Below, piece after piece: positions 36,887 through 60,207 of a DNA stretch of 64,000 nucleotides; the stretch's first letter is position 1, and the number at the start of each line of letters is the position of its first letter. The DNA comes from Sinorhizobium sp. 8-89. GTDB lineage: Bacteria > Pseudomonadota > Alphaproteobacteria > Rhizobiales > Rhizobiaceae. Under the pieces are notes generated by a model. The model was not told where the DNA came from. It saw only the letters and a program-made list of their open reading frames with translations, and did no database searches. A program made the translations under genes and the position numbers. The DNA lies in contig NZ_JASKLR010000020.1 in NCBI RefSeq assembly GCF_030124325.1, forward strand, positions 1 to 64,000, in the 5' to 3' direction.

Positions 36887-36892
36887 ATGACT

Positions 36893-37010
36893 TATCGATA
36901 GAGTCTTCCTCCTCCCGGCTCTATCGTGGGATCGGCAACCCTCCTCCTCCCAGTTGCCGATCAGGATCGAAAGCCCGGCGCAACTCCTCCCGCGCCGGGC
37001 TTTCTCTTTT
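36893..37010 (+). ncRNA. Anti-Shine-Dalgarno small RNA, alpha-r14/cuckoo type
   Basis: Three consecutive stem-loops all display a C/T-rich loop with CTCCTCCC: stem 1 CGATAGAG/CTCTATCG (36896-36903, 36919-36926), stem 2 GATCGGCAAC/GTTGCCGATC (36930-36939, 36953-36962), and stem 3, which is the terminator (36970-36981, 36992-37003). Stems are perfect, while loops repeat the same anti-SD motif. This is the architecture described for the alpha-r14/cuckoo RNAs of alpha-proteobacteria, where the loops pair with ribosome binding sites or modulate mRNA levels. The promoter and U-rich end fit an independent transcript of about 115 nt. Strand is set by the U-tail. Confidence 0.78.
36970..37010 (+). terminator. 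Rho-independent terminator of the small RNA
   Basis: A perfect 12-bp stem AAAGCCCGGCGC/GCGCCGGGCTTT, a ten-base loop and a CTCTTTT tail. The loop itself carries CTCCTCCC. Confidence 0.85.
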
Positions 37011-44854: not shown

Positions 44855-44870
44855 ATAAAAACGTTTATAT
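44855..44870 (-). promoter_or_regulatory. LacI-type operator upstream of the GH42 gene
   Basis: ATAAAAAC-GTTTATAT, a near-palindrome (7 of 8 positions) centred at 44862.5, with the same AAAC/GTTT core as the operators at 51985-52021 and 60171-60207. It lies 60 bp before the GH42 start. Confidence 0.6.
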
Positions 44871-45000
44871 TCTCGGTCGGAGAGACGCTGCGCGCCGCCG
44901 TTCCTAGAACTTTTCGCCGTTTCATTGAAGCCGTGGAATTACTCCAACCCTTTGAAATTACGCAGGTCCGCAGGGAAAGCGGCTACACACTTTTCTGGCT

Positions 45001-46036
45001 CTAGCGCTCCGGCCTGAGGCGATCGTCGCATCGCTCGATAAGGTCGGGCATCAGCAGAATTTGCAGCGCCTCCGGTTGTTCGCCCTCCATGCGGCGCAGG
45101 ATGAATTTGCCAAGCAGCGCGCTCGGTTCGCCGATCGGCAAGTAATAGGTGGTGATCGGCGGCGCGAAATACTGGCTGACGTTCAAGTCGTCGGTGGCAT
45201 TGATGACCGCGTCGCGACCATGGACGAGGCCACCGCGCGTGGAAGCCGGAGAAGGCACCAAGCGCGGTGGCCTCGTTGGCGCAGATATAGGCGGTCGGCG
45301 GATCCGTAAGTTGAGACATGGCGATCACGTTTTCCCGACCGAAGGCCGGGGTCAGCCGCCCGTGGGCGACCAGGGCCGGATCATAGGGAAGGCCCGCGAT
45401 GTCGAGCGCTTGCCGGTAACTGTTAAGCCGAACAATGCCGTAGGTCAGCTGCTCCACCGGATTGAGCAGGGCGATGCGCCGGTGCCCGCGCGCGACCAAG
45501 CGCGCCATCGATATGCGGATCATTTGCTGGTTGTCGGCGTCCACATAGGCGTGCGGCTCGTTCTCGATGCTCATGCCATAGGTGACGAAGGGAAAATCCG
45601 CCTCCTGCATCACACGGATGCGCGGATCGTCGGCGCGCGTACCGGAAATGATGATGCCGTCCGCCTTTTTCAGCGAGACGATCTGCTTGATCGTCGCGAG
45701 ACTTTCCTCGAAATCGCGCACTGCAAAAAGGGCGACGCGGTAAGGGCTTTCCTCCAGCGCCCAGGAAATACCGCTCAGGAGTTGAGCGTATTCGACGCCT
45801 TCCCATTCGTCCTGCTTCGGCCCCGGCGCCGTCATGATCGCGGCGACCTGAAAGGTCTTGCCGGTACGCAACTGCACGCCGTGAAGATTAAGCTCGTAGC
45901 CGATCCGCTCGGCGGCATCGAAGACGATCGCGCGCGTTTCCGGACGAACCTGCGGCGAGTGTTTCAACGCCTTGGACACGGTGGCGATCGACAGCCCCGT
46001 CTCCTGCGCAATGGTCTTGATCGTCGGTCGCTGCAT
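45001..46036 (-). pseudogene. LacI-family regulator with a 1-base frameshift
   Basis: The regulator of the sugar operon begins normally (PTIKTIAQETGLSIATVSKA with a hinge near residue 55) and keeps homology to ATALGAFSGFHAR near residue 266. There the frame shifts: the true end (GRDAVINATDDLNVSQYF, PPITTYYLPIGEPSALL) is in another frame ending at 45001. Removing one C around 45233-45234 on the + strand restores it. The repaired stretch then aligns without gap with the second LacI protein of this window (59057-60127) from E-ATALG to DDLN. As written, the protein would carry about 100 foreign residues. Sequencing error or true loss of the dimer/ligand end are both possible. Confidence 0.85.
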
Positions 46037-46050
46037 CGCCGTTCAACTCT

Positions 46051-47754
46051 TTACCGGTTTTCGTCGCGAAGGGATTGCGCCAGCAGCAGATAGACCGCCG
46101 ACGTCCAGGCGAACGCCCGGTCGTGCAAGCCCCTCCCCGACCGTGCGTCGAAGTTTTCGGCCATACCGCTTTTGTTGGCAAGTGCACAGAACTTTTGCGC
46201 GATTTCTCGCGCCAATGCGCCCTCGCCCTGCCGACGCAGGCCGTCCCAGAGGAGGTAGGTCGTCGGCGCCCAGATCGGCCCACGCCAATAGCCGTCGTCC
46301 TCGTAGAAGCGGCTCTGCGGGCTCTCGGTCGCCGGTCCCCATTCGGTGATGAAGCCGCCCGCCTTGAGCCTGGCGACAAGCCTTTTACTGATCGCCGCCG
46401 GGAGGCGCTTGCCGAGAAGCAACGGCATGAACTGGATCAGGCTTTCCCCGTCGACAACGCGGCCCGGATCGCTTGCGAGCCGCGCGCCAAATGTCTCGCC
46501 GGTCCACAGCCGGTCGATCAGCAGCGCGTGCAGCCTGTCGGCCGTCTCGGACCAGACGGCGGCACGGCTGGCATTGTCCGTGAGCAGCGTGGCAAGGGCG
46601 TCGCAGGCAAGGATCAGGAACACCGGCAGGTCGGGAGAAAGAACCGGACCGCCCTTGGCAAAGAAACTCGCATTGTCCCAGCCGCTGTCGTTGCCATGAA
46701 AATAGCTCGGCAGTTCGTGTTCGCCGGCTCGCGCACACGTCAGCCAATAGGCAATCTGCCGGCCGATCGCAGTGCAAAGATAGGCTTTGCGCTCGGGCGT
46801 CAGGAAATCCGGCTGCGCCGCGGCGATCAAGGACACCGCCCAGCCGTGCACCGGCGGCTTGGTAAAGGCGAAGAGCACGTCGCGGTCGTTCACATAGTCG
46901 GGCAAGAGGCCGGAGGGGTGCTGATGATCGAAGATCGCGGCAAACTGATCGAAGGCGAGCTTTTCATCGAAAGCCGCCACACCCAGCGCCGAGAAAGCGT
47001 TGTCCCAGCTCCAGATGTTGATCATGTGATTTTTCGACATGTAGATCGCCGGCCGCGTCAGCGCGCCGCCGGCGGGCACGGCATTCGCCCAGAGCAGGTA
47101 GGCGGCAAGCCGGCGCGCTTCCTCTCCGCCCGCCACGCCTGCGGGTACCGATCGATACCAGGCGGAAAACTCCGCCGCCACGCCGGCATGTGCCGCGTCG
47201 AAGCCGCCCGGCTTTTCCAGCGGCGGCAGCGCGCGGAAAAAATCCACGTTGCCTTCGAAGCCGCCTTCACCGGAGAAGGCGAAAGAGACCTCGGTCGAAC
47301 GATCGCGCTGCCATTCACCAGAGACGGCAAGATCTCCTGAAACGACTCTTGGAATGAACTTGACGTTCTCGGCGGCCGCGACGAGGCAATCCTCGCCGGC
47401 GGGCGTGCGGTAGACATAGTCGTAGCGCGAGCCTTCGAGATGGAAGCGAACGCCCCCGCGTTCGCCTTTCAGATACAGCCGCTCGCCCTCGCCGATCACG
47501 AAACGCACGCAACCCTCGCCGATCCGCGCGACGAACTGGTCCGGCGACAGCTCCAAGCGAGCCTCGGCGATTTCTCCTGTCCGATCCAGGAATTCGACGC
47601 GGCAGAGTCGACCAAGCGAGGGACGCTCGTCACCGCCGCTGACGTGTCTCAGATAGAGGGCGCGCTCGCTCTCACGGCCCGGCACCCGCATCATCGACAG
47701 CGTCAGGAACCGTCCCCTTCGGCTGAAGGGAACATGCTCGATATCGAACAGCAT
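46051..47754 (-). CDS. Trehalase/glucoamylase-like (alpha/alpha)6 glycoside hydrolase
   Basis: A 567-residue protein with an N-terminal beta-sandwich and a C-terminal (alpha/alpha)6 barrel of the MGH1/GH63-type. Active-site segments are NIWSWDNAFSALGVAAFDE (the Trp-Asp pair typical of the family), LPDYVNDRDVLFAFTKPPV, then SGWDNASFFAKGG and RGPIWAPTTYLLWDGLRRQ. No signal peptide is present, so it acts inside the cell on imported oligosaccharides. It lies 3 bp after the permease gene, within the sugar operon. The glycosidic linkage cut is unknown. Confidence 0.85.
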   Translation of the reverse strand: MLFDIEHVPFSRRGRFLTLSMMRVPGRESERALYLRHVSGGDERPSLGRLCRVEFLDRTGEIAEARLELSPDQFVARIGEGCVRFVIGEGERLYLKGERGGVRFHLEGSRYDYVYRTPAGEDCLVAAAENVKFIPRVVSGDLAVSGEWQRDRSTEVSFAFSGEGGFEGNVDFFRALPPLEKPGGFDAAHAGVAAEFSAWYRSVPAGVAGGEEARRLAAYLLWANAVPAGGALTRPAIYMSKNHMINIWSWDNAFSALGVAAFDEKLAFDQFAAIFDHQHPSGLLPDYVNDRDVLFAFTKPPVHGWAVSLIAAAQPDFLTPERKAYLCTAIGRQIAYWLTCARAGEHELPSYFHGNDSGWDNASFFAKGGPVLSPDLPVFLILACDALATLLTDNASRAAVWSETADRLHALLIDRLWTGETFGARLASDPGRVVDGESLIQFMPLLLGKRLPAAISKRLVARLKAGGFITEWGPATESPQSRFYEDDGYWRGPIWAPTTYLLWDGLRRQGEGALAREIAQKFCALANKSGMAENFDARSGRGLHDRAFAWTSAVYLLLAQSLRDENR

Positions 47755-47757
47755 GGC

Positions 47758-48570
47758 CTAACCTTTCACCGATGAGCCGACCGCGCCATCCATGATGTAG
47801 CGTTGCGCCAGGAAAAAGAGCACGAGCGGCGGCAGGCAGAGGATCACGGTGATCGCCGCGATCGAGGTCACGTCGACCTCATGCAGGCCCTTGAACATCG
47901 AAAGCCCGAGCGTCAGCGTGTATTTCGACTGGTCGTTGAGGAAGATCAGCGGGCCGAGATAATCGTTCCAGGCATTCATGAAGTGGAAGGTCCCGACGAG
48001 CACCAGCGCCGGCATCATCAGGGGCAGATGGATGCGCCAATAAATGTCGAAGCTGTTCGCCCCGTCCATCCGCGCCGCCTCGTCGATCTCCATCGGCACC
48101 GTCATGATGTATTGCCGGAGCAGGAAGACGAAGAACGCGTCAGCGAAATAGGCAGGCACGATCAATGGTTTGAGCGTGTTGATCCAGCCCAGCATGTTGA
48201 ACTCCATGTAGAGCGGAATCATCTTCACGTCCCACGGAATCATCATCGTTGCGAGCAACAGGATGAAGAGCGCATCGCGCCCGGGAAATCGAAAGCGGGC
48301 AAAGCCGAAGGCGACGAGCGAACTCGAGAGTAGTTGCCCGACCGTCGAGAAGACGACGACGATCAGCGAGTTCGTGAGATAGGTGCCGAACGGCTGCTTG
48401 CTCCAGGCGGCGGCAAAGTTCTCCCAGTGCCATTCGGACGGCCAGAAGACCGGCGGGAACTGATAGAGTTCGGCCGAGCTTTTGATCGCCGTCACGAAAG
48501 TCCAGTAGAAGGGCGCGATGAAGAGCGCGGAGGCAAGGATCAGCGCCGAATAGAGGAAGGTCTTACGCAT
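47758..48570 (-). CDS. Carbohydrate ABC transporter permease (MalG type)
   Basis: A 270-residue inner-membrane permease with six helices (starting FLYSALILASALFIAPFYWT) and the EAA loop EIDEAARMDGANSFDIYWRI. It forms a pair with the adjacent MalF-type permease, whose stop it overlaps by eight bases. The start is well supported by the signal-anchor-like N-terminus. Confidence 0.94.
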   Translation of the reverse strand: MRKTFLYSALILASALFIAPFYWTFVTAIKSSAELYQFPPVFWPSEWHWENFAAAWSKQPFGTYLTNSLIVVVFSTVGQLLSSSLVAFGFARFRFPGRDALFILLLATMMIPWDVKMIPLYMEFNMLGWINTLKPLIVPAYFADAFFVFLLRQYIMTVPMEIDEAARMDGANSFDIYWRIHLPLMMPALVLVGTFHFMNAWNDYLGPLIFLNDQSKYTLTLGLSMFKGLHEVDVTSIAAITVILCLPPLVLFFLAQRYIMDGAVGSSVKG

Positions 48571-49519
48571 TGCGCTCTCCGTCGGCCTGGCGGATCTCGC
48601 CTTCGTAGTAGACCCAGGCGGCAGACCAGCGCATCACCACGAGGCTCAAGGCAAGCACGATGACGAACATCACCCAGGAGCCGGCCGCGGCATAACCCAT
48701 GTCGAAATATTTGAAGGCGTTGTCGTAGACATACATGGCGAAGAAATAAGTTGAACCGAGCGGACCGCCCTTCGTCAAAAGCAGCGCGATCGTCAGTTGT
48801 TGGAAGGCGGAGATGATCGAGGTGATGAAGGTGAAGATGAGCATCGGCCCGAGCATCGGCAGCGTGATGAACAGCATTTGGGCCCAGCCGGGCACGCCAG
48901 AGATGGTCGCGGCCTCGTAAAGCTCCTTCGGGATCGCCTTGAGGCCGGTGAGCAGAATCAGCATCGTGCCGCCGAGCCCCCAGAGACTGGCGATGATGAT
49001 CGCGACGATCGCAAGATTGGGATCGCCGAGCCAGTTCGGGCCGTCGATGCCGACGAGCGACAGCATGAAGTTCAAGAGCCCGTATTCCCTGCTGTAGATC
49101 CAGCTCCAGATCGTCACCAGGGCGACGCCGGAAATGACGCTTGGCAGATAGAAGGCGGTGCGGAAGAAGCCGCTGGCAAAGGTCACGTGGTGCAGCATCA
49201 GCGCCAGGAAGAACGACATGACGATGTTGAACGGCACGTAGATCGCCGCGAACTTCACGGTGATCCAGAGGCTCTCCCAGAACTGCGGGTCCTCGGTGAA
49301 CATCGAACGGTAGTTGTCGAGGCCGACGAAGGTGCGCTCGCCGACCACCGGCCAGTCGAAGAAACTCATCGTCAGCGAGAACAGGAGCGGCCCGAGCGTG
49401 AAGAACAGGAAACCGAGAATCCACGGGGAAATGAACAGATAGGGCGCAATGTGGCGCCTGACGCTCGCACGCTTGCGGCGCGCCGCTCCTGTCTGCGTTC
49501 CGGCATAGGCCATATCCAT
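48563..49519 (-). CDS. Carbohydrate ABC transporter permease (MalF type)
   Basis: A 318-residue permease with six helices; IAPYLFISPWILGFLFFTLG near the N-terminus and the EAA loop KELYEAATISGVPGWAQML. It has a positively charged N-terminus (RRKRASVRRH) that fits the cytoplasmic side. It follows the binding-protein gene by 15 bp in the sugar operon. Confidence 0.94.
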   Translation of the reverse strand: MDMAYAGTQTGAARRKRASVRRHIAPYLFISPWILGFLFFTLGPLLFSLTMSFFDWPVVGERTFVGLDNYRSMFTEDPQFWESLWITVKFAAIYVPFNIVMSFFLALMLHHVTFASGFFRTAFYLPSVISGVALVTIWSWIYSREYGLLNFMLSLVGIDGPNWLGDPNLAIVAIIIASLWGLGGTMLILLTGLKAIPKELYEAATISGVPGWAQMLFITLPMLGPMLIFTFITSIISAFQQLTIALLLTKGGPLGSTYFFAMYVYDNAFKYFDMGYAAAGSWVMFVIVLALSLVVMRWSAAWVYYEGEIRQADGERNA

Positions 49520-49534: not shown

Positions 49535-50764
49535 TTATTTCAACAGTCGCTTCGAGCGAGCCACGGCATCGTCCAGATGCGCCTTGGCGTTGCCCTGATC
49601 GATCATCGTCGCCTCGATGGCGCGCGCCAGGTTGTCCTGGATCTTGCCCCAGTTCTCGTTCTTCAAATACGCGTGGATTTCAATGTTCGAGGTGGCGAGG
49701 ATGTCGAAGAACGGCTTGTAGACCGGGTCCTTGGTCATGCCCTTCGCTTCGGCGACGCTGGTGCGGACCGGCAGGTCGTTGGTGCGCATGGCAACCGCTT
49801 CCGGCGAGGAGAAGAACTTTACGAATTCCCAGGCGAGATCCGGATGGGTGGCGTCCTTGGCGATCGAAATCGCCGATACACCGAGCGCCGAATGGGCGAC
49901 ATGGTCGCCGAACTTCGGCAGCGGCGCCACGCCATAGTTGAAGCCGGCAGCATCGATGCCCGCCTTCGACCACATGGCGCTCTGGAACATGGCGATCTTG
50001 CCGCCCTTGAAGAGCGTCCCGCCCGACGTATCGTCGCCGAGATTGAGGGTCACCGCCTCGTGCGACTTGGCCATATCGGCGAACATGTCGAGCACCTCGG
50101 CGGCCGCATCGCTGTTCATATAGCCATCGATCTCCTTGCCGTCGTCGGAGATGTATTTAGTGCCGTTCGACCACAGGAACTGCTCGAAGTCATAGGGGTC
50201 CGGTTTGGCGTCGACGGCGAAGCCATAGACCTTGTTCGCCTCATCGCGGAACTTCGCAGCCTTGGCGCGGAGGTCCTCCCAGGTCCATCCGTCCTTCGGC
50301 TGCTCAACGCCGGCCTTGGCGAACATGTCCTTGTTGTAGAAGACGACCTGGGTGGTGAAGCCCGAGGGCATGCCGTAGGTCTTGCCCTCGACGCGCGTCG
50401 TGTTCATCAACCCTTGAGGGAAATCGTCCGGCTTGATCTCGGCGGCATCGCGCGCGATCAGCTCGTCGAGCGGCATCAACGACGTGTAATATTGCGGAAA
50501 ATTCCACATATACATGACGTCCGGCGGATTGCCGGCGCCGAAGGCGGCGACGAGCTTCTGGTCGTAACCGTCCGCATAGGGTTCGACCTGAACCTTCACG
50601 CCCGGATGCTTTTCCTCGAATTTCTTTGCGATCGCCTGCTGGATTGCAAGGCTTTCATCCGTGTCCCAGGTCGCGAAACGCAAGGTCTCTTCCGCCCGCG
50701 TGGTCGCTCCCGTTAGCGCGAGCGCCAAAAACGAGCCGGCGATCGACTTCGTCATCTTATGCAT
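49535..50764 (-). CDS. Sugar ABC transporter periplasmic substrate-binding protein
   Basis: A 409-residue cluster-1 (MalE-like) binding protein: signal peptide (SIAGSFLALALTGATTRAEE), then ETLRFATWDTDESLAIQQAI, the sugar-stacking region PPDVMYMWNFPQYYTSLMPL and later AWEFVKFFSSPEAVAM. The start overlaps the ATPase stop by eight bases. It should bind an oligosaccharide cleaved by the GH42 and (alpha/alpha)6 enzymes, such as a galactoside; the ligand is an inference. Confidence 0.93.
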   Translation of the reverse strand: MHKMTKSIAGSFLALALTGATTRAEETLRFATWDTDESLAIQQAIAKKFEEKHPGVKVQVEPYADGYDQKLVAAFGAGNPPDVMYMWNFPQYYTSLMPLDELIARDAAEIKPDDFPQGLMNTTRVEGKTYGMPSGFTTQVVFYNKDMFAKAGVEQPKDGWTWEDLRAKAAKFRDEANKVYGFAVDAKPDPYDFEQFLWSNGTKYISDDGKEIDGYMNSDAAAEVLDMFADMAKSHEAVTLNLGDDTSGGTLFKGGKIAMFQSAMWSKAGIDAAGFNYGVAPLPKFGDHVAHSALGVSAISIAKDATHPDLAWEFVKFFSSPEAVAMRTNDLPVRTSVAEAKGMTKDPVYKPFFDILATSNIEIHAYLKNENWGKIQDNLARAIEATMIDQGNAKAHLDDAVARSKRLLK

Positions 50765-51932
50765 GTCTCTCCTCCAAAACCGGGCCGCGCGGGCCCCTTC
50801 CCTCTTCTTGATTGATGAGCGCCCGCGTCTCGGCATCGAGCGGCCGTTCGATCGCCTTCCCGTCGGCATCGAAGAGATGGCAATGCTCGGAAGGAATGCG
50901 GATATGGACGCGCTCGCGGGTTGAGACGGGATGCGTGCCGCGCACGACCGCGGTCAGATCACCGCCGCCTTCGAGGCTGATATGGACGTGGCTTTCGGTG
51001 CCGAGGCGTTCGACGAGCCTGACATTGCCGGCAAGATGCGCTTCATCGGGCGATGTCAACTCCAACTTGTTCGGGCGAATTCCAAGCGTCACGGGGCAGT
51101 CGCGGCCGATCGGCGCGGGCGAAAGCGTGTCGAGCGAAAGCTCCCGCGCGAGCCCGCCGCCGGCAAGCCTCAGGCCCGTCTCGCACTCGTCCGCCACGTT
51201 GGCGTTGACGAAATTCATGCGGGGGGAGCCGATGAACCCTGCGACGAAGAGGTTTGCCGGCCGATAGAACAGTTCCAGCGGCGTGCCGAACTGGCTGACC
51301 TTGCCCTTGTCGAGCACGACAACGCGATCGGAGAGCGTCATCGCTTCCACCTGATCATGCGTCACATAGATCATCGTCACGGCGAGACGCTCGTGCAGGG
51401 CCGCGAGCTCGACACGCATCGTCACGCGTAGCCCCGCATCGAGATTGGAGAGCGGCTCGTCGAGCAGGAACAGCTTCGGCTCGCGCACAATCGCCCGGCC
51501 GATCGCCACGCGCTGGCGCTGGCCACCGGAAAGCTGGCGCGGCTTGCGGTTCAGAAGCTCGGTAATACGCAACACCTCGGCCGCGTTCGTGACGCGCCGA
51601 TCGATCTCGTCGCGCTTCATGCCGTTCAGCGCCAGGCCGAAAGAGAGATTCTTGCGGACGTTCATGTGCGGGTAGAGCGCGTAGTTTTGGAACACCATCG
51701 CAATGTCGCGCTTCGCCGACGGCAAGTCGGTGATGTCACGCTCGCCAAGGCGGATCGAGCCGCCGTCGAGATTTTCGAGCCCGGCGATCGAGCGCAGCAA
51801 CGTGCTCTTGCCGCAGCCCGATGGGCCGAGAAAGCAGACGAACTCACCGTCGGCGATGTCGAGGTCGATGCCCTTCAACACTTCCAGCGAGCCGAAGCCC
51901 TTGCAAAGATTTTCGATGCGGATCGCTGCCAA
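50757..51932 (-). CDS. Sugar ABC transporter ATPase (UgpC/MalK type)
   Basis: A 391-residue ATPase: Walker A FLGPSGCGKSTLLRSIAGLE, signature LSGGQRQRVAIGRAIV, Walker B LFLLDEPLSNLDAGLRVTM, H-loop YVTHDQVEAM, then the C-terminal regulatory domain with NFVNANVADE and VTLGIRPNKLEL. Start at a TTG (AAIRIEN) with GGGGAGA upstream; another TTG five codons ahead is possible. It is the first gene of the sugar operon, behind the paired LacI operators. Confidence 0.93.
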   Translation of the reverse strand: MAAIRIENLCKGFGSLEVLKGIDLDIADGEFVCFLGPSGCGKSTLLRSIAGLENLDGGSIRLGERDITDLPSAKRDIAMVFQNYALYPHMNVRKNLSFGLALNGMKRDEIDRRVTNAAEVLRITELLNRKPRQLSGGQRQRVAIGRAIVREPKLFLLDEPLSNLDAGLRVTMRVELAALHERLAVTMIYVTHDQVEAMTLSDRVVVLDKGKVSQFGTPLELFYRPANLFVAGFIGSPRMNFVNANVADECETGLRLAGGGLARELSLDTLSPAPIGRDCPVTLGIRPNKLELTSPDEAHLAGNVRLVERLGTESHVHISLEGGGDLTAVVRGTHPVSTRERVHIRIPSEHCHLFDADGKAIERPLDAETRALINQEEGRGPRGPVLEERHA

Positions 51933-51984
51933 AAAATCTCTCCCCAAAGCGCACGAGGCGATCGCTGCCTTCGATGCACCACAT

Positions 51985-52021
51985 AGTTAAACGTTTTTAT
52001 AGACGAAAAAAACGTTTAACT
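51985..52021 (-). promoter_or_regulatory. Paired LacI-type operators before the sugar operon
   Basis: Two AAAC/GTTT palindromes: AGTTAAAC-GTTTTTAT (51985-52000) and AAAAAAAC-GTTTAACT (52006-52021), with centres 21 bp apart, two turns of the helix, so two dimers would bind on the same face. They lie 53-90 bp upstream of the ATPase start. Confidence 0.7.
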
Positions 52022-52196
52022 TACGTGTAAAGCGAAAATTCAGAGACCGTTTCAAGGTGGCGGTTTCAGGCGGCCATGATTCAAGTTTCTGATGTCGACA
52101 GCAGCGATGGCCGCCGTGTTGGGGGCATGTCAAGCGTGCGTTGTTGGACTAGGCGACATCTTGTAGATTTGGCACGACACCTTGGAGATTGGGAAC

Positions 52197-52634
52197 ATGG
52201 CGCTCAAGCGGATGGACAACGTTGGAATCGTCGTCGAAGACCTCGGAGGCGCGATTGATTTCTTTGGCGAACTCGGCCTTGAGCTCGAAGGGCGGGCCAC
52301 GATCGAAGGAGAATGGGCCGGACGTGTCACTGGACTGGGTGATCAGCGTGTCGAGATTGCCATGATGCGCACACCTGATGGACACAGCCGGCTCGAGCTC
52401 TCCCGCTTCCTCACGCCGCCTGTCGTCGCAGATCACCGGAACGCCCCGGTCAACGCTCTCGGCTACCTCCGCGTCATGTTCACCGTGGACGACATCGACG
52501 AGACGCTTGAAAGGCTCCGTACGCGCGGCGTGCAGCTCGTAGGCGAAGTGGTCCAGTATAAAGACGCGTATCGGCTCTGCTACATTCGTGGGCCTGAAGG
52601 GCTGCTCATCGGACTCGCCCAAGAAACTAGCTGA
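52197..52634 (+). CDS. VOC family (glyoxalase-fold) protein
   Basis: A 145-residue protein with two VOC units: RMDNVGIVVEDLGGAIDFF at the start and VMFTVDDIDETLERLRTRGV, ending YIRGPEGLLIGLAQE with the metal-ligand glutamate position replaced by the GLLIGL pattern. TTGGAGATTGGGAAC precedes the ATG, making this start preferred over the upstream TTG. Substrate unknown, possibly a resistance or lyase function. Confidence 0.85.
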   Translation: MALKRMDNVGIVVEDLGGAIDFFGELGLELEGRATIEGEWAGRVTGLGDQRVEIAMMRTPDGHSRLELSRFLTPPVVADHRNAPVNALGYLRVMFTVDDIDETLERLRTRGVQLVGEVVQYKDAYRLCYIRGPEGLLIGLAQETS

Positions 52635-52804: not shown

Positions 52805-55800
52805 TCAACCGCTCGAAACACTTGCCAGCACCTCGTCGAGCGCATCGAGGAAATAGTCGCTGTTCTCGGCGCTAAAGGGCGCCGGCGGTTTGATCTTCAG
52901 CACGTTGTGATGCGGCCCCTCGCTTGAAAGCAGGATCCGGTACTTCCTCTTCATTTCGGCAATGACAAAGTCGAGTTCGCTCGCGGCCGGCTCCAGGGTT
53001 TCTCGATCGCGCACGAGTTCTATGCCGTTAAAAAGACCATGGCCACGCACGTCAGCGATGATTGGGTGCCGCTCCGCCAGCCGGCGCGCACCATCCATCA
53101 AACGCTTGCCGACGACCGCGCAATGGTGCACCAGCCGCTCGTCGCGAATGACGTCGAGTACCGCAAGGCCGATCTCCGCGGAAACCGGATTGCCGCCGAA
53201 CGTATTGAAATACTCCATCCCATTGGCAAAGGTCGCCGCGATCGCCTCGGTGGTGACAACGGCCGCCATCGGATGACCGTTGCCGATCGGCTTTCCCATG
53301 GTGACGATATCGGGCACGACGCCTTGGGTCTCGTGCGCCCACATGTGAGTGCCGACACGGCCGAAGCCCACCTGCACCTCGTCCGCCAGGCACAATCCTC
53401 CGGCAGCGCGCACATGGGAGTAAGCCTGCTTCAGATATCCCTCCGGCAGGACCAATTGGCCGCCGGTCCCCAAAATGCCCTCGCTGAAGAACAGCGCCGG
53501 CTTGCGGCCTTCCGCCGCCAGCGCTTCGACCTGACGTTTGACGTCTTCGGCATATTTCGCCCCCGCATCGGCATCGCCGTAACGGTAGCGGCCGCGGTAG
53601 AGATCCGGCATCTCGGCGACGCGCACATGCGCCGGCCTGCCCTCCCCGCCTTTGCCGGCGAATTTATAGGGACTGACGTCGATCAGGCTCGAGAGATGGC
53701 CGTGATAGGCGTGATCGACCGTGATGATGTCGCGGTTGCCGGTATAGGCACGGGCGAGCCGGATCGCGAGATCATTCGCCTCGCTGCCGGAATTAACGAA
53801 GAAGCAGACGTTCAGGTGGTCGGGGAAGAGTGCGGTCAGCCGCCGCGAATATTCGACCAGGCTGTCGTGCAGATAGCGCGAATTGGTATTGAGCCGCGCC
53901 ATTTGCGTCTCGGCCGCCTTGACCACACGCGGATGGCAGTGGCCGACATGGCAGACATTGTTGACCATGTCGAGCCAGCGGGTGCCCTCCTCGTCGATCA
54001 GATAGGCACCTTCGCCGCCGACGATCTTGAGCGGCGCCGCGCTATAGGCGATGCTCAACGACCGGCCGATGCGGCGATGGCGTTCGCGCACCAGAAATTC
54101 CTTGTCGCGCGAAACGGTTACCGAGGCCGGCACCGAAAGCCCGAGCACGACGCTCGGATCAGGGCTCACTTCGCGCCAGACCTGCCATTGGTCGCGCACG
54201 CCGACGCCATGCATCCGCGCTTCGAGACCGAGGTGATCGGTAACGATCTGGAAATGCAGATGCGGCACCCAACCGCCGTTTTCATCGCGGGCGCCTAGGG
54301 CCGCGAAAGCCTCCCCCTTGGTGATCGGCTGACCGATCGCAAGTTTTTCCGCGCTCTCGCGCGACAGGTGACCGTAAAGCGTCCAGAACACGTCACCCTC
54401 GGCGGTCACGTGCTCAATGAGCACCGTCGGACCGAAACCGTGCGCCACGGCGTCGTCATGGTAGAAGGCGACCTTGCCCGCAAACGGTGCATGAACGGAT
54501 TCGCCGGCCGGCGCAAAAATATCGACGCCGAGATGGACGGTGCGCCGCTGGCTCGCGACCGTCGTGCGATAGGCATCCCCCTTGTAGACCGCGCGGTCCT
54601 CGCCATAAAGGCCAAGGCCGAAGTCCGCGCCCTCGTCGCGGATAAGCTCCTCGATCCGGGCTTCCGCCTTCGCCTTGTCAAGTGTCGCCCAGTCGTTCGC
54701 AGCGAGCCCGCTTGCCGAAAAATCGAAGACCGCTGCCTTCGGCTTCGAGACTGCCGGCCTTATGATTCTCGAAAAATCATGGGCGTTCCGCTCGAGCCAG
54801 CGCACGATCCGCGCCGCCGTGGGAACCGGTTCGAAGCCACAGGCATCCCGAAGGCGAGCAACGGCAATTGCGCGGTTTTCGCGCTCGATCCGCTGCAGTT
54901 CGCGCCAGACATCCTTTTGGCTGACGAGCAGATAGGTGTTCTCGGGATTCTCGCGGATCTGTTTTGCTGCCACGCAGATGCTGACGGCGTAGCGCGTGCG
55001 CACGAGGTCGAAGATCAGCTCGACTTCGGTTTCCGTAAGCGGGTTGACGTCGTGATAAGCGCCGGCAAGGCGGGCGATGGTGCCAACCGCATCCTCCGCG
55101 CCGATCAGAGCATAGGCGGAGGCCACCGCGATCTCGATGACGCGAAAAGTCTCGACCATGTCGCCGAAGTCGAGCAGGCCGCTGACGCGTCCATCGGCGT
55201 CGAGAAGCACATTGTAATCATTGGCGTCGTTGTGGATCACCTGCCGCGGGCAAGCCTTCAGGCGCGGCAGCACGGCGGAAACGAAATGATCGAGAATGGC
55301 GCGAACCACGTTGCGCTTTTCCTCGTCCGCGATCAGATCGACATGGGCGCGATGCATCTCGGCCTGAGCGAGATCCCAGCCATAAACGCGCCCTGCACCC
55401 GGATGATCGAAGCCCGTCAAGGCGCGGTCGAGCGCGCCGAGCAAGGCTCCCAATGTCTCGACGCTTGCAGCGCTGCGGTTCGAAGCTCCCGCCCAGGTTT
55501 CGCCGGGCAGCCAGGTGAGGAGCCGGGCAAGGCGCGCTCCCTTGAAGTCGACGGAACTGAGCAGCGCGCCGGAACGATCCGGCAGGGCGCGGGAGACGGG
55601 CAATGCCGGCGCTGCCAGGGCCAGGTGCTCGAGAACGGCGACCTGCATGTCGAGCTCTTCCGAAGCACCCGCCGCGTGCAGCTTCAGCAGGAATTCACTG
55701 CCGTCGCTCGCGCGAACACGGAAATTGAGGTCGTGTTCGCCCGGCAGCGCGGAGATCTCTCCCTCCATCCCATAGGTCCCGGTCAGCAGCTTTTTGATCG

Positions 55801-55837
55801 CCGCTATCTCCTGTCCGCCCAAATCCTTCGTGGTCAT
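52805..55837 (-). CDS. Kinase / M23-peptidase-like / class III aminotransferase fusion (phospho-lyase type)
   Basis: A 1010-residue three-domain protein. Residues ~1-355 form an APH-type kinase domain (catalytic VIHNDANDYN near 205 and metal-binding LLDFGDMVE near 225). Residues ~375-565 hold an M23-like fold with the Zn ligand pattern HLGVD (near 435), YGHL (near 490) and PHLHF (near 528), without signal peptide. Residues ~570-1010 are a PLP class III aminotransferase with VNSGSEANDLA, LADEVQVGFGR and the PLP lysine in VTMGKPIGNGHP, a motif of the phospho-lyase branch (ethanolamine-phosphate and phosphohydroxylysine phospho-lyases). Kinase plus phospho-lyase would phosphorylate a hydroxylated amine and eliminate phosphate and ammonia. 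Similar fusions are known; the M23 role is unknown. It is the last gene of a LacI-led operon. Confidence 0.9.
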   Translation of the reverse strand: MTTKDLGGQEIAAIKKLLTGTYGMEGEISALPGEHDLNFRVRASDGSEFLLKLHAAGASEELDMQVAVLEHLALAAPALPVSRALPDRSGALLSSVDFKGARLARLLTWLPGETWAGASNRSAASVETLGALLGALDRALTGFDHPGAGRVYGWDLAQAEMHRAHVDLIADEEKRNVVRAILDHFVSAVLPRLKACPRQVIHNDANDYNVLLDADGRVSGLLDFGDMVETFRVIEIAVASAYALIGAEDAVGTIARLAGAYHDVNPLTETEVELIFDLVRTRYAVSICVAAKQIRENPENTYLLVSQKDVWRELQRIERENRAIAVARLRDACGFEPVPTAARIVRWLERNAHDFSRIIRPAVSKPKAAVFDFSASGLAANDWATLDKAKAEARIEELIRDEGADFGLGLYGEDRAVYKGDAYRTTVASQRRTVHLGVDIFAPAGESVHAPFAGKVAFYHDDAVAHGFGPTVLIEHVTAEGDVFWTLYGHLSRESAEKLAIGQPITKGEAFAALGARDENGGWVPHLHFQIVTDHLGLEARMHGVGVRDQWQVWREVSPDPSVVLGLSVPASVTVSRDKEFLVRERHRRIGRSLSIAYSAAPLKIVGGEGAYLIDEEGTRWLDMVNNVCHVGHCHPRVVKAAETQMARLNTNSRYLHDSLVEYSRRLTALFPDHLNVCFFVNSGSEANDLAIRLARAYTGNRDIITVDHAYHGHLSSLIDVSPYKFAGKGGEGRPAHVRVAEMPDLYRGRYRYGDADAGAKYAEDVKRQVEALAAEGRKPALFFSEGILGTGGQLVLPEGYLKQAYSHVRAAGGLCLADEVQVGFGRVGTHMWAHETQGVVPDIVTMGKPIGNGHPMAAVVTTEAIAATFANGMEYFNTFGGNPVSAEIGLAVLDVIRDERLVHHCAVVGKRLMDGARRLAERHPIIADVRGHGLFNGIELVRDRETLEPAASELDFVIAEMKRKYRILLSSEGPHHNVLKIKPPAPFSAENSDYFLDALDEVLASVSSG

Positions 55838-55853
55838 GATCCCGCTCACATTC

Positions 55854-56534
55854 TCACCATGAAACCCGCTTGCCGTCGAAAGCGAGGAAGCTGCCGCTAT
55901 TGGCGAGCCCCGCTTTGTCGATGACCGCTTTGAGCCCGGCTGCGCTCTCCGCGATCGGGACTGTCGCCGCCTCGCCGCCCATGTCGGTCTTTACCCAGCC
56001 GGGATGCAGCGACAGAACCGCAACTCCGCGCTTACGCAGATCCTGAGCGAGCTTCACCGTCGCCATGTTCAGCGCCGCCTTGGAGCAGCGATAGGCATAG
56101 TCGCCCTCGTCATCGTCGAGCGTGCCCTCAACCAGCGATCCCGCACGGCTGCTGATATTGGCGACGATCCGGCGCTCGCCGGCGAGGATGTTGGATAGAA
56201 GCGCCCGCACCAGAAGAAGCGGGGCCAATGCGTTGACGCGCATGACCTCGAGGAACTCCTCCGGATCGAGCGTCGCCAAGCCGCCCGTGTCGCCGCGAAT
56301 TCCGGCATTGTTGATCAGGAGGTCGATCGGCAGGCCGTCGAGTTCGCGCGCCAATGTGACAATCGAATTGCTATCGGCGACATCCAGCCTTCGCCGGGCG
56401 AGCCTGGGGTCAACCGAAGCCGAGACGGAACGCCCGCAGGCAATCACCTGCCAGCCAGAATCGGCATAGAGCCGTGCGAGCTCCAGGCCGAGACCGCGGG
56501 AAGCGCCGGTGATCAGGACCGTGGGGCCGGTCAT
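55854..56534 (-). CDS. Short-chain dehydrogenase/reductase
   Basis: A 226-residue SDR: cofactor loop LITGASRGLGLELARLYADS, NNAGIRGD, catalytic serine in NISSRAGS, and Tyr/Lys in GDYAYRCSKAALNM; ends SFLAFDGKRVSW. AGGAGCACC precedes the ATG; an upstream extension of ten codons is less likely. Located between the transporter and the fusion gene, it may oxidise or reduce the aldehyde released by the fusion enzyme; this is inference. Confidence 0.9.
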   Translation of the reverse strand: MTGPTVLITGASRGLGLELARLYADSGWQVIACGRSVSASVDPRLARRRLDVADSNSIVTLARELDGLPIDLLINNAGIRGDTGGLATLDPEEFLEVMRVNALAPLLLVRALLSNILAGERRIVANISSRAGSLVEGTLDDDEGDYAYRCSKAALNMATVKLAQDLRKRGVAVLSLHPGWVKTDMGGEAATVPIAESAAGLKAVIDKAGLANSGSFLAFDGKRVSW

Positions 56535-56544
56535 GGTGCTCCTC

Positions 56545-58197
56545 CTATCGATGCTTGATGTCATATTTTCGCTCGATCATGTTGACGAGGCTCGCCGCTG
56601 CAAGCGTCAGGAAGATGTAGAAGATCGCTGCCGAGTTATAGGGCGCAAAGGGCAGGAAGCTTGCCGACTGGAACTCGCGCATGCGCTGGGTGATGTCGCG
56701 GATCGACAGGATCGACAGCAGCGACGTGTCCTTGAGGATGGCGATCAACTCGTTGCCGAGCGGCGGGATGATGATCCGGAAGGCCTGCGGCAGCACGACG
56801 AGCCGCGCCGTCTGCCAGCGGTTGAGACCGATGCTGCGCGCCGCCTCGATTTGGCCGACGGGAATGGCATTGATGCCGGAGCGAAAGATTTCGGCGAGAT
56901 AGGCGGAATAGGCAAGCGCCATCGCGACGATGCCGCGCATCAGGTTAGGCGGGTCGAAGACGCCTTGGGTCGCGTCCTTCAAGGCGCCGCTCAGGGGCAG
57001 TCCGACATAGAGCACAATCACCAGCATCGGTATGCCGCGAATGGTATCGACGACGAACTCCGATCCGATCGCCAGCGGATGGCGCCGATGCAGGTAGCCG
57101 CCGAAGGTGAGCAGGCCGAGGATGATGGCGAGCACCGCGAAGGTGATGCCAGCCGACCGGTCCCGGTCGTTCAGCGCTTCGGTTTCCCAGAGTACCCGCC
57201 AACCTGCGGGAGCTGCCGCCTTAGGTAAAAGCGCAGCCGTCACGTCCTTCTTCTCCGCGGCCGCGACCGCTTCGGTCGGTCCAAGGAAGGTCCTGACGGC
57301 GGACTCGTTTTCGGGCGCACCCGGATATTGGCCGAAGCGCACAGCACCGATCAGGCCGGACGGCGTGTTGCTGACGATAGCCACCTTGCCTTCGAGCGAG
57401 CCAGCAAGCACATAGGCCTCGCGCGGCTGCAGCAGGAACCAGGCGGACGCGAGGGCAAGTGCAAGGGTCGCCAGCGCGAAAAGCAGGCTCGTGCGTGCGG
57501 TGTAGTGCAGTTGCAGCAGGCCGACCCAGATGAGCCCCATGACCGCCGCGAGAATATAGGCGGCGATGGCGGCGCGGATCGTCGTCGCAACCCCGGCGGC
57601 AAAGGCGATGTGTGCGAAGAAAAAGATGAAGATCAAACCCGCGCCATTGACGAAACCGAGGATCCAGGCGCCGACGCGGCGGAGCCGGGTGTCCGCCGCG
57701 TCGGTCTTGCGCGTGCCGGCGAAGAAAAGGCCAAGTCCCAGCAGGGTCATCCCGAAATAGGCCGGATAGAGTACGGATTCGACACCGTGCACCGCGAGGT
57801 CGGCCGCTTCCGACAACTGGCGGGGCGTCACGCCCTTGACCACGAGAGAAGACGTGAAGGGGTCGACGCCATTGGCGACGACGGAGGCAACGAAGGGATG
57901 AATGGTGCCGCTTGAGAGAAGGACGGCGGCGGCCACGAGATTGAGTATGGCGGCCGCCGTCGACAGCCGCGGGCGGTATGCCTTCGTCCGCGAAAGGAAC
58001 AGAACGGCGATGCCGGACGCAAACGCGATCATCAAGGCCAGAAAGCCCGGTACGAAGGTGGAGGAACCGTTCTCCACGCCGAGTATCGCCCGTAGCGAGC
58101 GCTGGTAGTCCCCGGAGGAAGCAAAGAGATAGACGATGAATGGCAGCGCGGTCAGGATGATCAGATTGCTGGGCCGCACGCTTCTCAGAAACGACAT
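56545..58197 (-). CDS. Amino-acid ABC transporter permease with long N-terminal membrane extension
   Basis: A 550-residue protein. The C-terminal ~220 residues are a usual HisM-type permease (VVDTIRGIPMLVIVLYVGLP and the EAA loop GQIEAARSIGLNRWQTARLV, ending ERKYDIKHR). The first ~330 residues hold about seven extra hydrophobic segments and a soluble stretch near 265-340 (EGKVAIVSNTPSGLIGAVRF), so the protein is more than twice the normal length. It follows the binding protein gene by 89 bp. No ATPase gene is in this operon, so an ATPase must come from elsewhere. Extended permeases of this shape exist in related bacteria. Confidence 0.88.
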   Translation of the reverse strand: MSFLRSVRPSNLIILTALPFIVYLFASSGDYQRSLRAILGVENGSSTFVPGFLALMIAFASGIAVLFLSRTKAYRPRLSTAAAILNLVAAAVLLSSGTIHPFVASVVANGVDPFTSSLVVKGVTPRQLSEAADLAVHGVESVLYPAYFGMTLLGLGLFFAGTRKTDAADTRLRRVGAWILGFVNGAGLIFIFFFAHIAFAAGVATTIRAAIAAYILAAVMGLIWVGLLQLHYTARTSLLFALATLALALASAWFLLQPREAYVLAGSLEGKVAIVSNTPSGLIGAVRFGQYPGAPENESAVRTFLGPTEAVAAAEKKDVTAALLPKAAAPAGWRVLWETEALNDRDRSAGITFAVLAIILGLLTFGGYLHRRHPLAIGSEFVVDTIRGIPMLVIVLYVGLPLSGALKDATQGVFDPPNLMRGIVAMALAYSAYLAEIFRSGINAIPVGQIEAARSIGLNRWQTARLVVLPQAFRIIIPPLGNELIAILKDTSLLSILSIRDITQRMREFQSASFLPFAPYNSAAIFYIFLTLAAASLVNMIERKYDIKHR

Positions 58198-58286
58198 TCA
58201 TTTCTCCGAGGAGTATGTTCCGGAAAGTTCCTGGTCCCGGAACGGACAACGCGCTCCGGGACAGTCGGATCAAGTCGGCGGTCGGC

Positions 58287-59021
58287 CTATTTGAGGCCCC
58301 AATATTTGTCGACGAGTTGATCCAGCGTGCCGTCGTCCTTGATCATCTTCAGCCCTTCGTTGAAGGCCGCGACATTGGCGTCGCCCTTGCGGAAGACGAG
58401 GCCGAGCGGATCGGATTCGAGATCCTTGATCCCAACAACGAGCTCGCCGGCGAATTCGCGTTCATAGGCCGCGGCATTGGCGCCGTTGATGACGACGCCG
58501 TCCACATCCTTGTTCTTGAGGGCGATGATCGCCGCGCTGAAACTGTCATAGGCAACGACGTTCTCCTTGCCGACGACACCCTCGGCGACCTGCGCGTCGG
58601 TGGTGTTGGCCTGGGCGGAAAGCTTTTTGCCCTTGGTCTTGAAATCATCGAGGGACGCACCCTGATCCTCGACGCGCACCAGCACGGCCTGGCTGTTGAC
58701 GATATAGGGGTCGGAGAAGTCCATGGCCTTCTTGCGCTCCTGGGTGATCGAGACGCCAGAGGCGACGAGGTCGAAGTTGCCCTGATCGAGCGCGGTGAAA
58801 ATGCCGTCCCAGCCGGTGGTCACGAATTCCGCCTGGCAATTGATCTTGGCACAGATGGCATTGACCACGTCGACGTCGAATCCGACGACCTGACCGGTCG
58901 CCGGATCGACGCTTTCCATCGGCGGCGACGTCGTGTCCGAGCCGACTTTCAGGAGCTGGCCGCCGAGATCGACGGCATGGGCGGCGCCGGATGCCAGGGC
59001 CGACAGCGCAAGGGCAATCAC
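58287..59021 (-). CDS. Amino-acid ABC transporter periplasmic binding protein
   Basis: A 244-residue family-3 solute-binding protein: GQVVGFDVDVVNAICAKINC, then FTALDQGNFDLVASGVSITQ and KKAMDFSDPYIVNSQAVLV. A GTG start lies 8 bp behind GGAGGAG. The signal peptide that results (MIALALSALASGAAHA) lacks the usual positively charged N-terminus, which suggests a base lost near the start or a real weak signal. It is downstream of lacI, with a 35-bp gap, and upstream of the permease. Confidence 0.85.
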   Translation of the reverse strand: MIALALSALASGAAHAVDLGGQLLKVGSDTTSPPMESVDPATGQVVGFDVDVVNAICAKINCQAEFVTTGWDGIFTALDQGNFDLVASGVSITQERKKAMDFSDPYIVNSQAVLVRVEDQGASLDDFKTKGKKLSAQANTTDAQVAEGVVGKENVVAYDSFSAAIIALKNKDVDGVVINGANAAAYEREFAGELVVGIKDLESDPLGLVFRKGDANVAAFNEGLKMIKDDGTLDQLVDKYWGLK

Positions 59022-59056
59022 AACGTTTTCTCCTCCGTTGTGAATTGTGGATCTCT

Positions 59057-60127
59057 CTACCCGACGAGACGCCCGCCGAGGCTGTCCGGCTGCCGCTCGA
59101 TCAGCTTCGGCCGGAAGATCTGGCGCAGTTCCTTTGGCTCCTCGCCCGCCATGCGCCGCAACAGGAACTCACCGAGCGTGCGCCCGAGAACTTCGATCGG
59201 CTGGTAGAAGGTGGTAATCGGCGGCGTGAAATAGGCGCTGACATTGATGTCGTCATAGGCGATGACATCGATGTCGACGCCCACCTGCCGTCCGAGACTG
59301 CCAAGCGCCGAAAGCACGCCGAGGGTCGTCGACTCGTTGATGCAGACAAAGGCCGTCGGCGGTTCCGCCGACTGCAGGAGGCGAGCGGCGCTTTCCCTGC
59401 CGAAATGCGTTGAAAGATCGCCCTCAACGACAAGATCATGAGAGGCTGGCAGTCCCGCTTCGCGGAAAGCGCGCGTAAAACCGTCGATCCTGTCGAGCGC
59501 ATAAGAAAGGCGCCGCTCCGGGTTGACGAGGGAGATGCGGCGGTGACCGCCAGCAATCAGCCTTGCCGTCGCCGCATGCGCCGCCCACTCGTTGTCGATA
59601 TCGACATGGGCATACTCGAGCGGTTGGCGGCAGCGGCCAAGCGATACGAATGGAAACCGGCTCTCCACCAGAAGATCGATGCGCGGATCGTCGTCGAGGA
59701 TGCCCGAAAAGATCAATCCGTCGGCCAGCCCCTGGTCGATGACCCGGCGTGCAACATCACAGCCCTCCGCCGCATCCCGAACGACATGCACCGACATGCG
59801 ATAATCGCTGCCGTCCAGCGCCTGGCTGATGCCGCTCAGGATCTGGGTATATTCGACGCCGTCCCATTCGTAGTTTTGCGCCGCGGTCACCGGCATCAAC
59901 ACGGCTGCCTGGCAGGTCCGGCCGGTTCTAAGCGCCATGCCGCGTGCATTGGCCTGATAACCGGCCTCGCGCGCCGCCTTGAAGATCACCTCCCGGGTCG
60001 CGGGCGCGACCACCGGTGAACCGCGGAGTGCCTTCGAAATCGTGGCAATCGAATAGCCGGTGATGTCCGCCAGAGTCTTGATCGTTGGCGGTGCGCTACG
60101 GCGCGCTGTGGGATTCTCCGCGGCCAT
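59057..60127 (-). CDS. LacI-family transcriptional regulator
   Basis: A 356-residue regulator: helix-turn-helix TIKTLADITGYSIATISKAL and hinge near residue 65, then a periplasmic-binding-protein-like domain (GLIFSGILDDDPRIDLLVES, RLIAGGHRRISLVNP, IDVIAYDDINVSAYFTPPIT). It is the first gene of the operon that encodes the transporter, SDR and fusion enzyme, so it likely controls it through the paired operators just upstream. Similar in layout to the broken LacI of the sugar operon. Confidence 0.93.
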   Translation of the reverse strand: MAAENPTARRSAPPTIKTLADITGYSIATISKALRGSPVVAPATREVIFKAAREAGYQANARGMALRTGRTCQAAVLMPVTAAQNYEWDGVEYTQILSGISQALDGSDYRMSVHVVRDAAEGCDVARRVIDQGLADGLIFSGILDDDPRIDLLVESRFPFVSLGRCRQPLEYAHVDIDNEWAAHAATARLIAGGHRRISLVNPERRLSYALDRIDGFTRAFREAGLPASHDLVVEGDLSTHFGRESAARLLQSAEPPTAFVCINESTTLGVLSALGSLGRQVGVDIDVIAYDDINVSAYFTPPITTFYQPIEVLGRTLGEFLLRRMAGEEPKELRQIFRPKLIERQPDSLGGRLVG

Positions 60128-60170: not shown

Positions 60171-60207
60171 ATAAAAACGATTTCAACGAAAATATAAACG
60201 TTTTTAT
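60171..60207 (-). promoter_or_regulatory. Paired LacI-type operators before the second LacI-led operon
   Basis: ATAAAAAC-GATTTCAA (60171-60186, one good half) and ATATAAAC-GTTTTTAT (60192-60207, near-perfect) have centres 21 bp apart, the same spacing as at 51985-52021. They begin 44 bp before the lacI start, and two dimers would sit on one DNA face. Confidence 0.65.

Follow-up and report, generated by a model that had tools for sequence, protein, structure and literature searches.

Which compound is broken down by the products of a five-gene operon in Sinorhizobium sp. 8-89 that ends in a kinase-peptidase-lyase fusion? The operon lies in a 64,000-nucleotide stretch (positions 1 to 64,000 of contig NZ_JASKLR010000020.1, assembly GCF_030124325.1; hereafter the window), is led by the LacI-family regulator gene lacI1, and closes with a gene for a 1014-residue protein containing an APH-type kinase domain, a Peptidase_M23 domain and a pyridoxal phosphate (PLP) domain. 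Hydroxylysine bearing a glucosyl-galactosyl unit is a hallmark of collagen, and we consider it likely that the operon belongs to a LacI-controlled regulon for the catabolism of collagen-type glycosylated 5-hydroxylysine. This reading draws on features of the sequence, namely the domains, the clade of the PLP domain, a common palindrome, intact active-site residues, recurring neighbours and the presence of downstream genes; every substrate and every reaction of the route set out below is predicted.

The fusion gene (52805..55849, minus strand) encodes the kinase domain at residues 36–266 (55052..55744; Pfam APH, 2.3e-26), the M23 domain at residues 438–537 (54239..54538; Pfam, 7e-16) and the PLP domain at residues 606–1008 (52826..54034; Pfam Aminotran_3, 2.3e-67), all on the minus strand, which bears out the statement in the preliminary description that a kinase and a PLP domain share one polypeptide. 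Relatives of the fusion were drawn from the best 80 of 591 confirmed stretches, from named genomes and therefore weighted toward closer relatives (the 80 named loci, 1.46 Mb in total); L-numbers denote loci of fusion relatives, some of which are shortened by contig ends. Conservation was scored in a core set of 98 proteins, with pieces of 640 residues or less excluded. The HxDxxxxN and DxGD residues, which we take to be the motif residues of APH-type kinases, are nearly invariant (D208 and N213 in 96 of 98, D227 in 97, D230 in 96), and the catalytic PLP lysine, K853, is present in all 98 aligned proteins. When compared with all PDB sequences, the fusion matched 6TOR, an ethanolamine-phosphate phospho-lyase, with 494.8 bits and the phospholyase 5G4I with 309.0 bits, while anything else reached at most 186.7 bits. 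We also built a quick tree of 120 PLP-domain rows (excluding L075, L076, L039, L041, L118 and rows of 400 residues or less), in which the outgroup branches are long and 38 of 117 inner branches fall below 80 in Shimodaira-Hasegawa-type approximate likelihood ratio support (SH-aLRT). The window's row lies within an 86-row clade that contains 6TOR (SH-aLRT 96), and 5G4I falls in a separate clade of 19 rows (99), together with lyases that stand alone and some kinase-lyase proteins. A model of the full-length fusion has a predicted local distance difference test score (pLDDT) of 85.6 and a predicted template-modelling score of 0.63, so that the placement of the domains is uncertain. The host genome encodes a second kinase-lyase fusion (G000:C27:82808-85690, equivalent to L035:7800-10778), which is PRK06149-like with a degenerate M23-like middle, and L046 (8217-10295) encodes a 692-residue M23-lyase protein without a kinase domain near an apparent oligopeptide-type ATP-binding cassette (ABC) transporter.

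The five genes are collinear on the minus strand from 60127 to 52805, in the order already reported for them, with successive gaps of 35, 89, 10 and 4 bp. lacI1 (59057..60127; Pfam LacI and Peripla_BP_3) is followed by an SBP_bac_3 periplasmic binding protein (58287..59021), whose nearest NCBIfam model is of the lysine/arginine/ornithine type but is matched under its cut-off, a 550-residue HisM/EhuD-type ABC permease (56545..58197), a short-chain dehydrogenase/reductase (SDR; listed as 55854..56564, with a probable ATG start at 56534 behind an AGGAGG box, judged by eye) and the fusion. In the permease, BPD_transp_1 is matched only at residues 358–545, the transport domain thus forming the last 190 residues or so behind an N-terminal extension of about 350. 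By blastp labels, the same five-gene order is kept in all four Sinorhizobium/Ensifer plasmid records (L074–L077) and in Ensifer L115, the carriers being S. meliloti 1021 and ml66, S. terangae, Ensifer sp. PDNC004 and E. adhaerens Lc04; the arrangement is therefore not due to chance.

The operon appears to be one of three units under a common predicted operator. Reading the DNA upstream of lacI1, we noticed the palindrome WWAAACGTTTWW, of which the window contains four copies free of mismatches, versus 0.18 occurrences expected with one mismatch allowed. Throughout the 7.06-Mb host genome it likewise occurs four times, all inside the window. The reversed pattern, used as a chance control, occurs five times in the genome; as the first site defined the pattern, three sites are independent of it. 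These AAACGTTT sites are candidate LacI operators and stand 67 bp before lacI1 (60194..60205, the pattern-defining site), 61 and 40 bp before a UgpC-type ATPase gene that heads a sugar-ABC operon (52008..52019 and 51987..51998, 21 bp apart) and 62 bp before a GH42 gene (44857..44868). In S. meliloti L074, three perfect palindromes and one with a mismatch precede the same genes; Ensifer L077 and L115 each carry four perfect copies and one with a mismatch, and L037 and L038 one perfect copy ahead of their lacI, plus one with a mismatch. Several palindromes in the relatives are paired, again 21 bp apart. Taken together, the sites, to which LacI would bind, suggest a LacI regulon of three units.

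The second and third units encode a sugar importer and two glycosidases, all on the minus strand. The UgpC/MalK-type ABC ATPase (50757..51947) matches NF008653 with 453.1 bits against a cut-off of 432, and the sugar ABC binding protein (49535..50869, start as listed) and two permeases (48563..49519 and 47758..48570) are identified from the annotation of the corresponding place in S. meliloti ml66. Behind them lie a GH63-like glycosidase (46051..47754; PF22422, 9.6e-47), proposed to be an alpha-1,2-glucosidase, and a second LacI-family regulator (44939..46036). The GH42 beta-galactosidase (42765..44795; PF02449 7.1e-154, with PF08532 and PF08533) retains its catalytic, trimerisation and C-terminal domains, scores 717 bits to a solved beta-galactosidase and is the single PF02449 match in the host genome; PF22422 has two matches there, the stronger one in the cluster. 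Solved matches to the GH63-like protein of the window cover only short stretches, of 2z07-type and mycobacterial hydrolases, and score no more than 54 bits; its L080 homologue matches YgjK with 256 bits. The preliminary description, in which the system spanned 52805-60127, located the operon correctly but missed both glycosidases and the second importer under the same operator, and the system extends down to 42765. Its dedicated importer is likewise present in part: the operon encodes a binding protein and a permease (56545-59021) but no ATPase, while a UgpC-type ATPase belongs to the second importer. Two further elements of the window are a glyoxalase-family open reading frame between the lacI1 and sugar-ABC operons (52182-52634, plus strand) and the alphaproteobacterial small RNA ar14 (36890-37007, plus strand; Rfam RF02344, 105.6 bits).

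Do glycosidases accompany the fusion elsewhere? Neighbours were sought by tblastn, with 18 proteins of the window and of the loci as references; we prefer the resulting counts because, in some loci, simple gene calling overlooks genes or puts them in the wrong place (e.g., downstream in L076, and in L124 and L066). Among the 80 named loci, GH63-like genes occur in 14, GH2 in 8, GH42 in 6 (one a fragment) and GH1 in 1, with at least one of them in 16. Thirteen of the 14 GH63-like loci also carry GH2, GH42 or GH1, the exception being L078, a short contig that includes just part of the GH63-like gene. From genome densities, about 0.5–0.7 GH63-like loci would be expected, based on 30 PF22422 match rows in ~89 Mb of 18 related genomes (pieces counted singly) and 34 rows in ~70 Mb of 13 genomes mostly chosen for having one at the locus; this expectation comes from related genomes that are not independent, and detection differed between loci and genome counts. 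The arrangements vary among lineages: SusC-SusD-GH63-GH42-kinase-lyase in Flavobacterium L080, L082 and L084, SusC-SusD-GH2-GH63-kinase-lyase in L086, L087, L090 and L097 (SusC was confirmed by Pfam in L080 and elsewhere assigned from size and place), GH63-fusion-GH2 in L150 and, with one intervening gene, in L151, and GH63-fusion-SBP3-GH1 in Stagnihabitans L157. In Phycisphaera L085, GH63 and GH2 form one 1650-residue protein ahead of the kinase-lyase. Among loci beyond the named set, L047, L048 and L050 have GH2 next to the fusion, and L037 and L038 have lacI, permease, GH1 and SDR genes nearby. A different context is seen in L040, L041 and L044, where a glutamine-synthetase-like gene and a branched-chain-type ABC importer lie near the fusion.

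A second group of neighbours bears on the product of the lyase. In animals, the elimination of phosphohydroxylysine yields aminoadipate semialdehyde. In L048, an L-piperidine-6-carboxylate (P6C) dehydrogenase of the aldehyde dehydrogenase type adjoins the fusion (824 bits, cut-off 730), and its solved relatives include alpha-aminoadipic semialdehyde dehydrogenase; in L040 and L041, relatives of the L048 enzyme (56-57% identity) are found at a distance of 6.8 kb from the fusion, and L080 has one of 77% identity that is truncated by the locus end, at a distance of 9.2 kb. In L089, the reading frame of the kinase-lyase runs on into a 2-oxoadipate dioxygenase/decarboxylase domain (HGLS, residues 790-1038); in Pedobacter steynii L090 HglS is the next gene in the series GH2-GH63-kinase-lyase-HglS. 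Saccharopine-pathway-type gene pairs are found in L047, L078, L079 and L083; the L047 pair matches Pfam AlaDh_PNT_N and Sacchrp_dh_C, and neither protein matched an NCBIfam model at 1e-20. Lysine-route genes are present in 6 of the 80 named loci (L078, L079, L080, L083, L089, L090), together with a glycosidase in 4, so that at least one of the two kinds occurs in 18. The host itself encodes a 58% identical P6C dehydrogenase (C38:213349) and HglS (C38:210385) about 2 kb apart on another contig. These neighbours point to aminoadipate semialdehyde as the lyase product. Of the pathway outlined beforehand, the import operon, the kinase and phospho-lyase in one chain and the phospho-elimination to an aldehyde are thus retained, but the aldehyde enzyme would be the P6C dehydrogenase rather than the SDR. 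A further gene, directly after the fusion in L082 (12499-15450) and L139 (7764-10703), encodes an FAD-linked hydroxyacid dehydrogenase of ~980 residues that resembles 2-hydroxyacid dehydrogenases; specificity for D-2-hydroxyglutarate would be only a guess.

The M23 domain sits between two enzymes expected in the cytoplasm, and by eye no leader was seen at the N-terminus of the fusion. We counted as recognisable those domains scoring above 35 bits to that of the window. H439, D443, H494, H530 and H532, which include the HxxxD and HxH residues that we take to be the zinc-binding and catalytic residues of M23, are invariant in all 55 proteins with such a domain, of which 53 also have the kinase and 6 are Sinorhizobium/Ensifer near-copies; they are equally invariant in 42 of 42 proteins of a thinned set. 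This conservation had been overlooked, as had the NCBIfam model of the family. None of eight PRK06149-type fusions keeps the full residue set. The predicted middle region has a mean pLDDT of 88.6, and its best Foldseek matches are ShyA, EnpA, lysostaphin and LytM, of the M23/LytM type. That the active site is conserved, in a protein that appears to be cytoplasmic, speaks for catalysis, and the M23 domain is probably an active cytoplasmic peptidase. A general requirement for the domain in kinase-lyase function is ruled out, as 35 of the 98 core proteins lack it and it is degenerate in 8. In collagen, a glycine comes after the glycosylated hydroxylysine, and bonds that contain glycine are preferred by M23 enzymes; for these two reasons we infer a hydroxylysine-glycine peptidase role. 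We advance more tentatively, and with more doubt than belief, the idea of a trifunctional enzyme in which M23, as an active cytoplasmic zinc peptidase, would release (glycosyl)hydroxylysine from dipeptides of the collagen type (for example, hydroxylysine-glycine) for phosphorylation by the kinase and deamination by the lyase, forming a dedicated route in many phyla and some archaea to which an alpha-1,2-glucosidase and a beta-galactosidase were recruited several times independently. Kinase-M23-lyase fusions with intact M23 residues occur in two archaeal metagenome-assembled genomes (L112 and L113; Borrarchaeum, Thorarchaeota). Upstream of M23-containing fusions in L138, L142 and L151 are proline-racemase-family and ornithine-cyclodeaminase/mu-crystallin genes, possibly for hydroxyproline use. 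We did not adopt 3-hydroxyproline dehydratase as the identity of the L138 proline-racemase neighbour, which has cysteines at both of the places we presume to be catalytic and for which the human enzyme is the second-best solved match.

In the proposed route, the UgpC-type and SBP3 importers would take up glucosyl-galactosyl-hydroxylysine, galactosyl-hydroxylysine, hydroxylysine or short peptides of hydroxylysine. The GH63-like enzyme would strip the alpha-1,2-linked glucose from Glc-alpha1,2-Gal-hydroxylysine and GH42 the beta-galactose, giving hydroxylysine, and the M23 domain, acting in the cytoplasm, would most likely cleave a peptide bond beside hydroxylysine. The APH domain would then phosphorylate the 5-hydroxyl, the PLP domain would eliminate phosphate and ammonia from phosphohydroxylysine to form 2-aminoadipate 6-semialdehyde, and the P6C dehydrogenase and HglS would convert the semialdehyde through 2-oxoadipate to 2-hydroxyglutarate.

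How does this route compare with other explanations? The PLP domain could be an ordinary class III transaminase and the fusion accidental, in keeping with the annotation of a class III aminotransferase-fold enzyme in S. meliloti ml66, but this is extremely improbable: in the kind of tree that the preliminary description had suggested, the phospho-lyases, the window's row among them, stand apart from 7 transaminase or other rows (SH-aLRT 100), the two phospho-lyase scores of 495 and 309 bits compare with 187 for the next match, and in many phyla the kinase and the lyase form one protein or lie side by side. The scores and the tree split rule out an ordinary transaminase, and on sequence grounds the domain is a phospho-lyase. 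An amino alcohol as substrate is also improbable, if less so; the fusion would then phosphorylate ethanolamine or 1-amino-2-propanol, the lyase would release acetaldehyde or propionaldehyde, and the glycosidases would serve another sugar. The nearest solved relative, 6TOR, acts on phosphoethanolamine, and the PLP tree cannot separate phosphoethanolamine from phosphohydroxylysine lyases because its rows include no sequence of the latter, both of which count against hydroxylysine. Yet the HglS fusion, the P6C dehydrogenase and the saccharopine-type neighbours of the relatives point to aminoadipate semialdehyde, the glycosidases have the same palindrome, and the binding protein is of the amino-acid type, so that gene context favours hydroxylysine over ethanolamine.

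Somewhat less improbable, though still unlikely, is that the kinase-lyase uses free hydroxylysine while the GH63-like and GH42 enzymes form a separate system for a beta-galactoside or kojibiose-type sugar, with the regulator alone in common. The sugar operon does have its own importer and a second LacI, most loci are without glycosidases, and S. terangae L075 has the operon and the lacI palindrome but no GH63 or GH42 gene in the stretch examined. Against this stand the glycosidases that adjoin the kinase-lyase in several lineages with differing beta-galactosidase-type families, and the single GH63-GH2 protein upstream of the kinase-lyase in L085. Catabolism of glycosylated hydroxylysine must itself be weighed against L075 and several other observations. 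Neither a glycosidase nor a lysine-route gene of the query set, whose families were picked after inspection of the loci, lies in the stretch examined in 62 of the 80 loci; one palindrome each occurs in six unrelated loci (L050, L082, L087, L106, L119, L157); and the GH63-like protein of the window is only ~25% identical to those of L080-L087, glycosidase specificity being a property that cannot be read from sequence. Scans for a constant partner gave no Pfam family with more than 3 matches among 87 of 126 prepared neighbour proteins of M23-containing fusions, and no NCBIfam family with more than 2, at a strict 1e-60, among 78 proteins, most of them from the 113 prepared, at loci lacking M23. 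Collagen, moreover, is not an obvious rhizobial food.

Parts of the proposed system have known counterparts. Veiga-da-Cunha and colleagues reportedly identified in 2012 the animal hydroxylysine kinase AGPHD1/HYKK and the phosphohydroxylysine phospho-lyase AGXT2L2/PHYKPL. In the animal pathway, an APH-type kinase is likewise followed by a PLP phospho-lyase that gives aminoadipate semialdehyde, whereas in the present system a single protein combines the two with an M23 domain, within a LacI regulon with importers and glycosidases. The window fusion matches the NCBIfam model PRK06148 (NF004799) over its whole length, with 1405.6 bits against a cut-off of 1128, and in a sample of the phylum 10 genomes out of 398 match the model above cut-off, but it is named 'hypothetical protein' and gives no substrate. 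5G4I, an Arthrobacter phospholyase, is likewise of the class III-fold phospho-lyase kind but falls in another clade of the PLP tree than the window fusion. Class III lyases are few in number (PMC8154272). PMC8626586 describes Glc-alpha1,2-Gal-hydroxylysine and its animal alpha-glucosidase PGGHG, which cleaves the bond proposed for the GH63-like enzyme; PGGHG belongs to GH65, unlike the PF22422 protein here. Pseudomonas putida grows on hydroxylysine (PMC5974017), and its lysine route uses HglS to convert 2-oxoadipate to D-2-hydroxyglutarate (PMC7286885), being fed by lysine where the present route is predicted to be fed by hydroxylysine. Among the matches listed, open-licence PubMed Central titles and abstract starts contained no bacterial kinase/phospho-lyase route for hydroxylysine and no use of Glc-Gal-hydroxylysine.

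The 2012 work on the animal enzymes may have mentioned a bacterial kinase-lyase fusion already, and we therefore claim novelty narrowly, for the substrate assignment with its glycosidases, the regulon and the conservation of M23, the fusion family itself having been modelled as PRK06148. The cluster is present on pSymB of S. meliloti 1021, which serves as a genetic model, so that the proposal can be tested immediately. If it holds, a function would be named for a widespread family of 'hypothetical' proteins, the GH63-like and GH2, GH42 or GH1 enzymes of these loci would gain a testable substrate, an M23 peptidase inside the cytoplasm would pose a concrete question, and the pathway would suggest how microbes complete the breakdown of collagen.

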